The notes below the pieces were generated by a model. It saw only the letters and a list, made by a program, of their open reading frames with translations. It was not told the origin of the DNA and did not search any database. A program made the position numbers and the translations under genes. DNA of 64,000 nucleotides from Microbacterium excoecariae (lineage in GTDB: Bacteria > Actinomycetota > Actinomycetes > Actinomycetales > Microbacteriaceae): the NCBI RefSeq assembly GCF_011326725.1, contig NZ_JAANCO010000001.1, forward strand, positions 2,269,115 through 2,333,114, read 5' to 3'. This document shows, in pieces, positions 29,784-35,054 of the stretch; the first letter of the stretch is position 1; every line of letters begins with the position of its first letter.

Positions 29784-29848
29784 AAGTCCACATTTCTCCG
29801 GTAAGTCTCCGCGGATTCCGCGGAGACTTACCGGAGAAATGTGGACTT
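29784..29848. repeat. 65-bp perfect palindrome, copy 1
   Basis: Arms of 32 bp with a single central base (29816). The arm starts AAGTCCACATTTCTCCGG and ends at GTCTCCGCGGA. It lies between the convergent AGCS and glycerophosphodiesterase genes and overlaps the last six codons and stop of the latter. It can serve as a bidirectional terminator. A copy differing by one base over the 61-bp core is at 31917-31977. Lower GC than the surrounding coding DNA. Confidence 0.9.
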
Positions 29849-31916: not shown

Positions 31917-31977
31917 GTCCACATTTCTCCGGTAAGTCTCCTCGGATTCCGCGGAGACTTACCGGAGAAATGTGGAC
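31917..31977. repeat. Long palindromic repeat, copy 2
   Basis: Same element as 29784-29848. 25-bp perfect arms starting GTCCACATTTCTCCGG, then one mismatch (T at 31942 where copy 1 has G) and the shared CGGATTCCG centre. Here it sits downstream of an already complete terminator and upstream of the DUF4956 gene, so termination is not its only plausible reason for being there. Confidence 0.9.
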
Positions 31978-32064: not shown

Positions 32065-32086
32065 TGAAGGTGAACGAAAGGTGAAC
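32065..32086 (-). promoter_or_regulatory. PHO-box-like pair of 11-nt direct repeats
   Basis: On the minus strand two abutting units, GTTCACCTTTC (32086-32076) and GTTCACCTTCA (32075-32065), match the GTTCACC core and 11-nt period of actinobacterial PhoP sites. They overlap the ribosome-binding site of the DUF4956 gene. Another pair of 11-bp-spaced repeats (GCATAGG at 32033 and 32044) lies just upstream. The duplicated AAGGTGAAC could also simply be a doubled ribosome-binding sequence. Confidence 0.45.
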
Positions 32087-32089
32087 GCC

Positions 32090-32686
32090 ATGTCCGACGT
32101 CTCGATGCTCCTCATCGACCTCGCCGCAATCGCGGTCCTGACCCTCGCCATCTACTTCCGCCGACACCGCCGCCGCGACCTCGTCGTCGCGTTCGTCGGG
32201 GTCAACATCGGCGTGTTCGCCGTGAGCTGGGTGCTCGGCACGACGGGCGTCGCCGCCGGTCTCGGGCTCGGGCTGTTCGGCGTGCTCTCGATCATCCGGC
32301 TCCGCTCGACCGAGATCTCCCAGCGCGAGGTCGCGTACTACTTCGCGGCCCTCGCGATCGGTCTCATCACGGGACTGACGACGTCGTTCAGCGTGACCGC
32401 GACCGTGCTCGTCGCAATCGTCGTGGGCGCCCTGGCCGTCGTCGACCACCCGGCCCTGTTCGCGTCCTACCGCCACCGCACGGTGCAGCTGGACGAGGCC
32501 GTGGGCGACGAGGACGCGCTGCGGGCCGCGCTCGAGGACCGGCTCGGCGGGCAGGTCCGCAGCCTCACGGTGCAGCACCTCGACTTCGTCAACGACACGA
32601 CCCTCGTCGACGTCCGCTACCGCGCCCATCGCCGCACCGGCCCCGCCCGCCGCCGCGCGGCCGCCCGCCAGGCGGTGGCCGCGTGA
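32090..32686 (+). CDS. DUF4956 membrane protein of a polyphosphate-polymerase-like locus
   Basis: 198 residues from the ATG at 32090, which has GAAAGG 8 nt upstream; an in-frame GTG at 32081 lacks that spacing. About five membrane helices (5-22, 31-50, 52-67, 83-98, 102-117) include the DUF4956 hallmark FGVLSIIRLRSTEISQREVAYYF at 63-85. A cytoplasmic C-terminal domain (about 120-180) and a basic tail follow. DUF4956 proteins co-occur with VTC-domain proteins. Its stop overlaps the GTG of the VTC gene, so the two are translationally coupled. Biochemical role unknown. Confidence 0.88.
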   Translation: MSDVSMLLIDLAAIAVLTLAIYFRRHRRRDLVVAFVGVNIGVFAVSWVLGTTGVAAGLGLGLFGVLSIIRLRSTEISQREVAYYFAALAIGLITGLTTSFSVTATVLVAIVVGALAVVDHPALFASYRHRTVQLDEAVGDEDALRAALEDRLGGQVRSLTVQHLDFVNDTTLVDVRYRAHRRTGPARRRAAARQAVAA

Positions 32687-33465
32687 GCGCCCCGGGCATC
32701 GTCGGCCGCCTCGACGCGATCGGCCTCGACGAGCTCGTGGGCCAGGCCGAGCTGCTCACGCGCGTCGACCGCAAGTACGTCCTCACGCGGGCCGAGGCGG
32801 ATCGCGTCCTCGCCGCCGTCGACCCCGCGACGCGGGTGCTGGAGATCGACGGCGCGCGCGGATCCGCCTACGGCACCATGTACTTCGACACCCCCGACCT
32901 CCTCAGCTATCACCTCGCGGCGCACGGTCGCCGGCGCCGGTTCAAGCTGCGCGCGCGGCACTACGTCGACACCGACGCCGCCTTCCTCGAGATGAAAACG
33001 CGCGGCGCGCGCGGCACGACGGTGAAGGAGCGGATCCCCCACCCCGCCGACGCCGCGGACACGCTGACGCCGGAGGGCAGGGCGTACGCGGCGGAGGCGG
33101 TCGCCGGCCTCGGGCTCGGCGCGCACGTCGCCGACGAGCTCGCCCCGACACTCCACACCGCCTACCGGCGCACGACGCTCCTCCTCCCCGAGGGGGCGCG
33201 CGCGACGGTCGACACGGAGCTGGCGTGGGCCGACGCCTGGGGCCACCGCATGCAGCCGGGAGACCTCGTGATCGTCGAGACGAAGTCGGCCGCGCAGGCC
33301 TCCTCGCTCGACCGCCTGCTGTGGCGCGCGCGGATCCGCCCTGCACGCATCAGCAAGTTCGCCACGGGACTCGCGGCGCTCCGGCCCGACCTCCCTTCCC
33401 ACAAGTGGAACCGCATCATCCGCACCCATTTCCTCCGCGGCGCGAGCGCCGCCCTCGCCGCCTGA
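32683..33465 (+). CDS. VTC-domain polyphosphate polymerase-like protein
   Basis: 260 residues, essentially one VTC catalytic domain of the TTM (triphosphate tunnel) fold. Tunnel motifs are present: RVDRKYVL (28-34), GTMYFDT (64-70), RFKLRARHY (86-94), FLEMKTR (101-107), Lys 115, IVETKSA and ISKFATGLA. Yeast Vtc4 makes polyphosphate with such a domain. No membrane segment is seen, so it should act on the cytoplasmic side, next to the DUF4956 membrane protein whose stop it overlaps (GTGA). The family in bacteria is annotated polyphosphate polymerase mainly by homology. Confidence 0.88.
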   Translation: MSAPGIVGRLDAIGLDELVGQAELLTRVDRKYVLTRAEADRVLAAVDPATRVLEIDGARGSAYGTMYFDTPDLLSYHLAAHGRRRRFKLRARHYVDTDAAFLEMKTRGARGTTVKERIPHPADAADTLTPEGRAYAAEAVAGLGLGAHVADELAPTLHTAYRRTTLLLPEGARATVDTELAWADAWGHRMQPGDLVIVETKSAAQASSLDRLLWRARIRPARISKFATGLAALRPDLPSHKWNRIIRTHFLRGASAALAA

Positions 33466-33482
33466 CGCAAGGAGACACCGCC

Positions 33483-35054
33483 ATGACTCGCCCCACGCCC
33501 CCTCGCCGCCTCCGGGCCGCCTCCGGCCTCGGCCTCACCTTCGCGCTCGCCGTCGCGGCGCTCACCGGCTGCTCCGCCCTTGCCTCGGCGGAGGCGGAGA
33601 CCGAATCCGCCGCCACCGGCACCGCGTCGGCGTCCGCGTCCGACGCGTCGTCGGCGTCCGAGTCGGCCACGTCGTCGTCCGACGTGTCGACGCCCGCCGG
33701 CGTCTCGGAGATCATCGCCGCGAACTCCGACCAGACCGTCGTGAACGACGACGAGTGGTCGGAGGCCGACGCGGTCGACATCGCGCTCGACGGGACGACC
33801 GCCACCACCTCCTCGGAGAACGTCGTCGCCGCGGAGGGATCCGTCACGATCACCGCCGCGGGCGTCTACCGCCTCACGGGCGACTTCGACGGCGTCGTGG
33901 CGATCGACGCGCCGGAGGACGCGCAGGTCGTGCTCATCCTCGACGGCGTCTCGATCGAGACGGCCGACCAGGCCGCGATCGGCGTCGTCTCCGCCGACGA
34001 CGTCGCGATCGTCCTGGCCGACGGATCCGAGAACACCGTGACGTCCACCGGGACCTACGCGGACAGCGCGGACGCGAACGCCGCGATCTGGGCCGACACC
34101 GACCTCACGATCAGCGGCACGGGCGCGCTCGCGGTCGAGGCCGGCGCGAACGACGGCATCACGAGCAAAGACGACCTCGTCATCCTCTCCGGCTCTCTCG
34201 AGATCACGGCCGCCGACGACGGCGTGCGCGGCACGGACTCGCTCACGGTGCGCGGCGGCGATATCGCCATCGACGCCGGCGGGGACGGGCTGAGGTCCGA
34301 CCAGGAGGACGACGACACCCAGGGGTGGGTGCTCGTCGAGGGCGGGACGCTCGACGTCGAGGCCGGATCCGACGGCATCGACGGCTACACCGACGCGATC
34401 GTCACGGGCGGCGAGGTCACGATCGCCTCCGAGGAGGGCATCGAGGCGGGCACCGTCGCGATCGGCGGGGGCACGATCTCGCTCACCACGACGGACGACG
34501 GCATCAACGGATCCGCCGGCACCGCCGACGACACCGCCACGAGCGACGAGTTTGCGGGCGGCATGGGCGGCGGTGGCATGACCGACACGGGCGAGTACGT
34601 GCTCCTCGCGGGCGGGGAGATCACGATCGACGCGGAGGGCGACGGGCTCGACTCGAACGGATCCCTCGACATCACGGGCGGAACGACGATCGTCCTCGGG
34701 CCGACGAACGGCGGCAACGGCGCGCTCGACACGAACGGATCCCTGACGATCTCGGGCGGGACCCTCCTCGCGCTCGACTCGGGGGGCATGTCGGGCTCGC
34801 CCGCCACGGATTCGGCGCAGGCGTGGGTCGCGGCGACGGCGTCGGGATCCGCCGGCTCGACGGTCCAGATCCTCGCCGCCGACGGGACGGTCCTGTACGA
34901 GGCGGATGCGACGAAGACCTTCGGCGCCCTGGTCTTCTCCAGCGCCGACGTCGTCGCGGGCGAGACATACTCCGTGACGGTTGACGGCGCCGAGGTCGCC
35001 TCCGCCGCGACGGGCCAGGCCCTCGCGGGCGGCATGGGCGGCGGCCCCCGCTAA
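33483..35054 (+). CDS. Cthe_2159-type (carbohydrate-binding domain) beta-helix lipoprotein
   Basis: 523 residues from the ATG at 33483 with AAGGAG upstream. Lipoprotein signal ending LTGC (Cys 30) and a Ser/Ala-rich tether (31-75). The rest is a series of rungs such as DGIDGYTDAIVTGGEVTIAS, DDGVRGTDSLTVRGGDIAID and GDGLDSNGSLDITGGTTIVL, rich in Asp, Gly and Asn. The founding protein Cthe_2159 is a calcium-binding right-handed beta-helix reported to bind acidic polysaccharides. It lies 17 bp after the VTC gene, so it is probably the secreted partner of the DUF4956-VTC pair. Confidence 0.85.
   Translation: MTRPTPPRRLRAASGLGLTFALAVAALTGCSALASAEAETESAATGTASASASDASSASESATSSSDVSTPAGVSEIIAANSDQTVVNDDEWSEADAVDIALDGTTATTSSENVVAAEGSVTITAAGVYRLTGDFDGVVAIDAPEDAQVVLILDGVSIETADQAAIGVVSADDVAIVLADGSENTVTSTGTYADSADANAAIWADTDLTISGTGALAVEAGANDGITSKDDLVILSGSLEITAADDGVRGTDSLTVRGGDIAIDAGGDGLRSDQEDDDTQGWVLVEGGTLDVEAGSDGIDGYTDAIVTGGEVTIASEEGIEAGTVAIGGGTISLTTTDDGINGSAGTADDTATSDEFAGGMGGGGMTDTGEYVLLAGGEITIDAEGDGLDSNGSLDITGGTTIVLGPTNGGNGALDTNGSLTISGGTLLALDSGGMSGSPATDSAQAWVAATASGSAGSTVQILAADGTVLYEADATKTFGALVFSSADVVAGETYSVTVDGAEVASAATGQALAGGMGGGPR

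Follow-up and report, generated by a model that had tools for sequence, protein, structure and literature searches.

A DUF4956–VTC–Cthe_2159 operon of Microbacterium excoecariae and its possible role in phosphate-controlled polyphosphate synthesis and export

What common task might join a DUF4956 membrane protein, a soluble VTC-type triphosphate tunnel protein and a secreted beta-helix lipoprotein? The question is raised by a 64,000-nucleotide stretch of the Microbacterium excoecariae genome (contig NZ_JAANCO010000001.1, positions 2,269,115 to 2,333,114; hereafter the window), where three genes encoding such proteins, here called D, V and C, form a head-to-tail operon at 32090-35054. Our favoured answer, to which we give a little less than an even chance, is that the operon, under Pho control, encodes a polyphosphate polymerase-translocator whose surface client can be exchanged. 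V, a cytosolic Vtc4-type tunnel enzyme, would make polyphosphate from ATP while docked on the C-terminal domain of D, and D, whose presumed cytosolic face carries basic loops with arginines, would thread the polymer outward across the cell membrane. Outside, a lineage-specific client would hold or use the chain. Here the client would be C, probably acting through bound calcium, and in relatives it may be CotH, a phosphatase-like protein or a phosphate-transport protein.

An original prediction, made from the sequence without database searches, had named the three consecutive families and had suggested that V makes polyphosphate that D handles at the membrane. Pfam matches above cut-off for all three genes confirm the families (Table 1); at E up to 1, NCBIfam offers no model for any of the three. 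The functional suggestion is now better supported, by the pairing of D with V, the Vtc4-type tunnel of V, the basic loops of D and PHO-box signals upstream, and it remains a model. The placement of the operon under phosphate control is new relative to that prediction.

The DUF4956–VTC pair

D and V are near-obligate partners in this phylum. An even draw of 198 genomes from the phylum contains V in 20 and D in the identical 20, with D adjacent to V each time. In an even draw of 119 genomes from the order, D occurs in 43, V in 38 and C in 36; all 38 V genomes have D, V is missing from 5 of the 43 D genomes, and 39 of 39 V genes lie no more than 4 kb from D, a V found as two pieces being counted once. 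Genes outside the window were called with our own script, and because it overlooks some V genes (for example at loci L038 and L039), absence of V in the order sample was taken from whole-genome searches. The original prediction had proposed counting co-occurrence as a check, and both samples return a strong association; where it described the families as already known to occur together, published work bears this out for D and V (PMC7112168).

The coupling extends to the reading frames. The predicted GTGA overlap (32683-32686), in which the D stop and the V start share 4 bp, agrees with the coordinates, as does the 17-bp gap between the V stop and the C start. Among fetched actinobacterial loci, which were picked for containing D or C and include a few genomes twice, the 4-bp overlap recurs in 95 of 107 adjacent D-V pairs and an overlap is found in 43 of 90 V-C pairs; counts from loci chosen by D lean towards Microbacterium and its relatives. 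Outside the phylum, plasmid records hold D-V pairs from Alphaproteobacteria, Deinococcus, Planococcus, Paenibacillus, Pseudobutyrivibrio, Acetoanaerobium and E. faecalis, the Gram-negative observations coming from few loci, and both families are present in the control genomes of Bacteroides ihuae, C. glutamicum and Methanosarcina acetivorans, that of C. glutamicum having CotH as well. A shortened DUF4956 gene follows a caspase-domain gene on a plasmid of Sinorhizobium meliloti (L153:6272-8639).

V is more than a stand-in for an absent polyphosphate kinase, because PPK1 coexists with it in the host genome and in 32 of the 38 V genomes of the order sample. The idea of V as a PPK1 substitute was dropped, V being found in 6 of 14 genomes without PPK1 versus 32 of 105 with it (Fisher p 0.37). 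The presence of PPK1 in the host genome speaks for a task of V beyond those of PPK1, with membrane crossing as the obvious candidate. A phage origin of V was also dropped, since a search of 50,697 phage records at E 0.01 turned up no V.

The only family that V matches above cut-off is VTC, and its 260 residues contain neither an SPX domain nor a transmembrane region of their own. Its structural model has a predicted local distance difference test (pLDDT) score of 93.7. The top 13 Foldseek matches in the PDB are all VTC chains, and the best structural match is Vtc4 3g3r (VIA Z 17.1, rmsd 3.1, 211 residues aligned), no other tunnel enzyme scoring above Z 14.1. In an alignment to Vtc4 3g3q, V residues K31, R90, R92, E103, K105 and K115 correspond to Vtc4 K200, R264, R266, E279, K281 and K294, and R163, R173, D177, E199, K201 and K225 correspond to R361, R373, D377, E426, K428 and K458. 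We take these Vtc4 residues, partly by assumption, to line the tunnel. Twelve of the 14 Vtc4 positions so regarded are kept in V and are invariant in 92 sequences, whose alignment has 20 invariant columns in all, and the tunnel Lys/Arg/Glu motifs are thus as intact as had been predicted. The Vtc4 positions without a match are R253 and K455 (Arg in V), and also 278 and 280.

Several of the retained residues matter for catalysis in Vtc4, in which R264A/R266A/E426N is catalytically impaired (PMC9911596) and K458 has been called catalytic, its equivalent being dispensable in a plant tunnel hydrolase (PMC4641920). The same source describes an acidic patch of the hydrolases that is absent from Vtc4, the plant enzyme carrying four glutamates where Vtc4 is basic. 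At these four positions V is basic in three (R27, K115 and K201) and acidic in one, Asp29, where the register is unsure because Vtc4 has Thr opposite this residue. With the reservation of Asp29, V looks like a polymerase rather than a triphosphatase. Membership of V in a eukaryotic VTC complex was ruled out, as the SPX domain and membrane region are missing; a similar way of working is possible.

The AlphaFold2 model of D (mean pLDDT 88.8) has the five helices originally predicted (residues 2-26, 29-51, 55-71, 78-96 and 102-118), followed by an alpha/beta domain. L66, R70, R72 and F85 are invariant in 102 D sequences. Loops 1 and 3 carry mean net charges of +2.96 and +1.14, loops 2 and 4 are slightly negative, and in the model loops 1 and 3 share one membrane side with the C-terminal domain. 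Because these loops, with Arg70 and Arg72, are basic, the positive-inside rule would place this side in the cytosol, on V's side of the membrane. Fold searches with D gave no convincing relative (best E 0.031 in the PDB and 0.018 in a viral library), and in a second structural comparison Z reached at most 5.2, with the top rows all belonging to the C-terminal domain and helical rows at 4.5 or below; such missing matches do not show a new fold. Calling D a channel is our own interpretation, because no solved relative was found.

Copies of D without V bear on where V might dock. Of six such copies five were scored, and in three of these the C-terminal domain is decayed (residual z -3.2 to -4.5), the other two lying at -1.3 and -0.8, against a lowest value of -2.5 among 92 comparison sequences. 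The V-less copies retain the Arg70/Arg72 motif. This pattern suggests that V docks on the C-terminal domain of D, and only suggests it, because four of the five copies come from one family and excluded distant D sequences also score low (to -3.5).

Phosphate control and genomic setting

The DNA signals suggest that the operon belongs to the Pho regulon. The PHO box of S. coelicolor consists of 7-nt repeats of GTTCACC units with four bases between them (PMC4415409). The site before D (Table 1) is the only one in the window with at least 12 of 14 matches, and a scan of the whole 2.71-Mb genome finds two perfect PHO boxes and four with one mismatch, where a reversed-pattern control finds none. 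Of these six sites, one belongs to the D-V-C operon and three lie by genes for PstS (TIGR00975, 202.9 bits, where the cut-off is 205), PhoX and a choice-of-anchor I protein; the surroundings of the remaining two show no clear connection with phosphate. The sole other perfect box (L183:1501-1518) lies between a 5'-nucleotidase-type gene and the gene for the secreted choice-of-anchor I protein.

The signal recurs in relatives. Among actinobacterial leaders filtered for near-identical upstream sequence, PHO-box-like sites precede 24 of 131 D operons versus 8 of 767 controls (p 4.8e-15, a value that, like the next, ignores shared ancestry). As GGTGA could be a ribosome-binding site, a second count left out the start-codon region and gave 14 of 131 versus 7 of 767 (p 4.9e-8), with sites at -64 to -143, 3 of the 14 being similar Streptomyces sites. 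A first control set had shown sites in 18 of 834 leaders, 10 of the 18 being the same site seen from a divergent neighbour, and the 67 controls sharing sequence with a D operon were removed to leave 767. Before the D operons themselves, other spacings of the motif yield 1-3 of 131 and shuffled motifs 0-1 of 131. No PHO box precedes D in the six V-less loci (best 9/14), which says little given the base rate of 24 in 131. Beyond the phylum, three tandem PhoB-type repeats precede a D-V-PiT-phytase-like set in Nitratireductor; they are absent before D in the other three of the four alphaproteobacterial loci read, from a search that listed 12 such records, 9 of them Aminobacter.

The closest named records by D identity are Microbacterium barkeri and M. 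suaedae. The operon is flanked by ordinary neighbours (Bax inhibitor-like, alpha/beta hydrolase and major facilitator superfamily genes), and in relatives the surrounding genes differ from locus to locus. Two copies of a 61-bp palindrome, with 25-nt perfect arms about a centre of 11 nt, lie close to gene ends in the window (29786-29846 and 31917-31977). Its arm has 42 matches in the genome with at most 3 mismatches (20 forward, 22 reverse), equivalent to about 20 copies, which makes it a repeated intergenic element resembling repetitive extragenic palindromes.

Table 1. The operon and its sequence features, in window coordinates.
Feature	Positions	Strand	Basis	Start and stop
D, DUF4956 membrane protein, 198 residues	32090..32686	+	PF16316, 203.8 bits (cut-off 30.6), E 2e-60, profile covered over full length	ATG 32090, stop 32686; alternative in-frame GTG at 32081
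V, VTC-type triphosphate tunnel protein, 260 residues	32683..33465	+	PF09359, 85 bits (cut-off 23), E 7.5e-24	GTG 32683, stop ends 33465
C, secreted acidic beta-helix lipoprotein, Cthe_2159 family, 523 residues	33483..35054	+	PF14262, 218.1 bits, E 1.7e-64	ATG 33483, stop ends 35054
PHO box GTTCACC-N4-GTTCACC, 14/14 conserved bases, 4-21 bp before D start	32069..32086	-	motif scan	
D Arg70-Leu71-Arg72 codons, invariant arginine pair, end of helix 3	32297..32305	+	alignment and model	
C lipobox LTGC, predicted lipidated Cys30	33561..33572	+	read from sequence	

The third gene and competing explanations

C had been predicted to be a secreted lipoprotein of 523 residues and beta-helix type, a description borne out by its LTGC lipobox, its PF14262 match (best stretch, residues 119-344) and its similarity to the solved Cthe_2159-type structure 4peu (E 2.7e-32). 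The mature part is strongly acidic, with 83 Asp/Glu versus 7 Lys/Arg and a predicted isoelectric point of 4.05. Proteins of the Cthe_2159 family bind calcium. Cthe_2159 itself binds celluloses and acid sugars (PMC6712302). A calcium-polyphosphate or anchoring role of C, as offered in the original prediction, stays a hypothesis.

C is the usual third-slot partner in the order, where D is present in 35 of 36 C genomes and C stands beside D in 33 of those 35; CotH is beside D in only 2 of the 43 D genomes. The third slot is nonetheless exchangeable. In the phylum sample, C or CotH lies within 5 genes of D in 19 of 21 loci (20 fetched plus the window) by our own profiles, the split between the two being approximate, since our C profile labelled as C a protein (L152) that is CotH by Pfam. 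Pfam confirms CotH as the third gene at L042, L100, L121, L135 and L137, two of these proteins carrying cellulose-binding domains; CotH was not found in the host genome. The third gene is phytase-like in all four alphaproteobacterial loci read, with a PiT phosphate transporter intervening in one, and a PAP2 phosphatase in one actinobacterial locus. A phosphate-selective porin (PF07396) follows D in Pseudoalteromonas and TolC follows D in Hymenobacter, each outer-membrane link resting on one locus. Any model must allow an exchangeable outer partner, because relatives carry CotH, phosphatase-like or transport genes instead of C.

Genes for histidine kinases and response regulators lie next to D-V in 6 of the 20 phylum loci and at three loci from Bacillota. 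A phosphodiester glycosidase (PF09992) and a GT2-GtrA-type glycosyltransferase lie as a pair no more than five genes from D in 37 of 119 loci, often from Microbacterium; glycosidase, glycosyltransferase and D stand directly in this order in 28 of the 119 (for example L025:8601-10692), and the pair is not next to the window operon. At L016:8025-12569, the gene after D and V encodes a GGDEF-EAL protein whose sensor domain is of the sugar-binding type, an arrangement that recalls a bifidobacterial Pel-associated set (PMC7112168).

The main rival to export is phosphate scavenging, with D as an inward conduit, outer partners capturing or processing phosphate polymers and V removing phosphates from the chain, for example onto ADP, during starvation. 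It fits the PHO-box signals and starvation control, and it finds company in phosphate-acquiring neighbours: the phytase-like genes of the four alphaproteobacterial loci (once with PiT), the PF07396 porin, PAP2 and, in one Deinococcus, a HAD acid phosphatase and a phosphonate-type transporter near V-D. We nevertheless consider scavenging unlikely. V has a polymerase-type site that includes the K458 equivalent, the third slot in the phylum sample holds Cthe_2159 or CotH proteins and not phosphatases, and TolC after D in Hymenobacter, together with Pel and other exopolysaccharide neighbours, suggests an outward direction.

That outward direction could also serve assembly of a matrix or surface, in which exported polyphosphate would cross-link, or would act as a phosphoryl donor for CotH or for glycan-linked surface proteins. 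CotH-polyphosphate polymerase-DUF4956 sets lie beside Pel operons (PMC7112168), V-D-CotH occurs with a glycosyltransferase as do similar genes in print (PMC2879425), and CotH-V-D stands inside an exopolysaccharide cluster; the cellulose-binding domains on third-gene CotH proteins, the glycosidase-glycosyltransferase pair near D and the binding of celluloses and acid sugars by Cthe_2159 (PMC6712302) point the same way. The window operon, however, has no adjoining glycan genes, the host genome yielded no CotH, and a nutrient role fits the PHO-box signals at least equally, and we rate this reading as quite unlikely. A purely regulatory role, with D as an MgtC-like membrane regulator and V sensing or hydrolysing triphosphate so that phosphate or ATP stays in balance, would require no polymer to move at all. 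The plan of D, five helices and a small alpha/beta domain, is like that of MgtC, and hhalign aligns the two weakly and in register (P 0.0015, probability 16.7), a match too faint to serve as proof. Against this, D has no Pfam MgtC (PF02308) match at E up to 1, for which reason its assignment as MgtC was rejected, and a regulator would need neither a near-obligate partner whose polymerase-type tunnel is intact nor a third gene whose product is exported; we regard this role as improbable. MgtC itself was found in 6 of 39 order genomes, the host genome not among them.

Several observations weigh against the polymerase-translocator we favour. Export of phosphate by a phosphate-starved cell is counter-intuitive, and neighbourhoods with Pel or other exopolysaccharide genes favour a part in building the matrix over one in phosphate supply. 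The PHO box of the window overlaps the ribosome-binding region, at most 21 bp from the start codon, an odd place for an activator, and 107 of 131 D operons lack a strong box. Within the proteins, Asp29 of V puts an acidic residue into one of the four positions of the acidic patch, the C-terminal domain of D carries a net negative charge (mean -2.09), and neither sequence nor fold search found a solved relative of D. The pairing, too, has exceptions. In G214, which holds one of the 20 phylum pairs, D and V are each interrupted by an in-frame stop. Six actinobacterial loci have D then C with no V beside them (L019, L032, L037, L044, L053 and L105), V being absent by whole-genome search for five of them (family f20 genomes) and its absence at L105 resting solely on a 3-bp D-C gap. 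Three plasmid loci, from Pseudoalteromonas (with a V remnant by our reading), Hymenobacter and Sinorhizobium, carry D without an intact or recognised V. Finally, several D-V loci without C or CotH have an unrelated next gene, such as DUF1611, an ammonium transporter or a DNA-repair protein.

Relation to known systems

A broader proposal follows from the polymerase-translocator model, namely that PPK is not the only polyphosphate system of bacteria and that a second one is coupled to the membrane: a starvation-induced, near-obligate VTC-DUF4956 polymerase-translocator delivering polyphosphate to a surface client. The client would be a beta-helix loaded with calcium or a CotH kinase, for which polyphosphate might even serve as phosphoryl donor where ATP is absent. 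We hold this to be doubtful. If true, it would put a VTC-like machine in many actinobacteria, at least four other bacterial phyla and one archaeon, give DUF4956 a function and bacterial polyphosphate a route to the cell exterior, and link phosphate physiology with the surface proteins Cthe_2159 and CotH. Two recent papers name PPK as the polyphosphate enzyme of bacteria and VTC as that of eukaryotes (PMC13318637, PMC12526157), and excerpts of the open-licence literature gave neither a function for DUF4956 nor a placement of this operon in the Pho regulon.

Two parts of the association are already in print, namely V-D-CotH near Pel and VTC-CotH in C. perfringens. The accessory set beside Gram-positive Pel operons comprises CotH, a polyphosphate polymerase, DUF4956 and DUF4832 (PMC7112168). 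As in the window operon, the V and D families stand side by side; unlike that set, the window operon has a Cthe_2159 lipoprotein in the CotH slot, no adjoining Pel genes and a PHO box upstream. In C. perfringens, NELoc-2 contains VTC, CotH and short membrane proteins of 222-226 residues labelled tubulin/FtsZ (PMC2879425). These 'tubulin' proteins are probably DUF4956, in a locus from another phylum with CotH and a glycosyltransferase in place of Cthe_2159.

Among single enzymes, PPK1 resembles the proposed V in making polyphosphate from ATP. Its fold is unrelated to that of V and it is not known to have a membrane partner. PHO boxes precede the PPK1 gene in Streptomyces (PMC7866108). The similarity of D to MgtC/SapB, by comparison, amounts to a weak profile match and no Pfam match. 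MgtC/SapB proteins consist of membrane helices followed by an ACT-like domain.

The closest parallel is the VTC complex of yeast (Vtc4/Vtc3/Vtc1), in which synthesis is coupled to translocation and a basic path leads into a membrane channel (PMC9911596). D-V shares with it the catalytic tunnel fold, 12 of 14 tunnel positions and the combination of a polymerase with a membrane part. Unlike the yeast complex, D-V has no SPX domain, keeps polymerase and membrane part in separate genes and has DUF4956 as its membrane protein; the yeast machine serves the vacuole, and D-V would work at the cell membrane with an extra secreted partner. Our favoured model, with its nearly even odds, regards D-V as the equivalent of this yeast machine in bacteria, its parts divided between two proteins.

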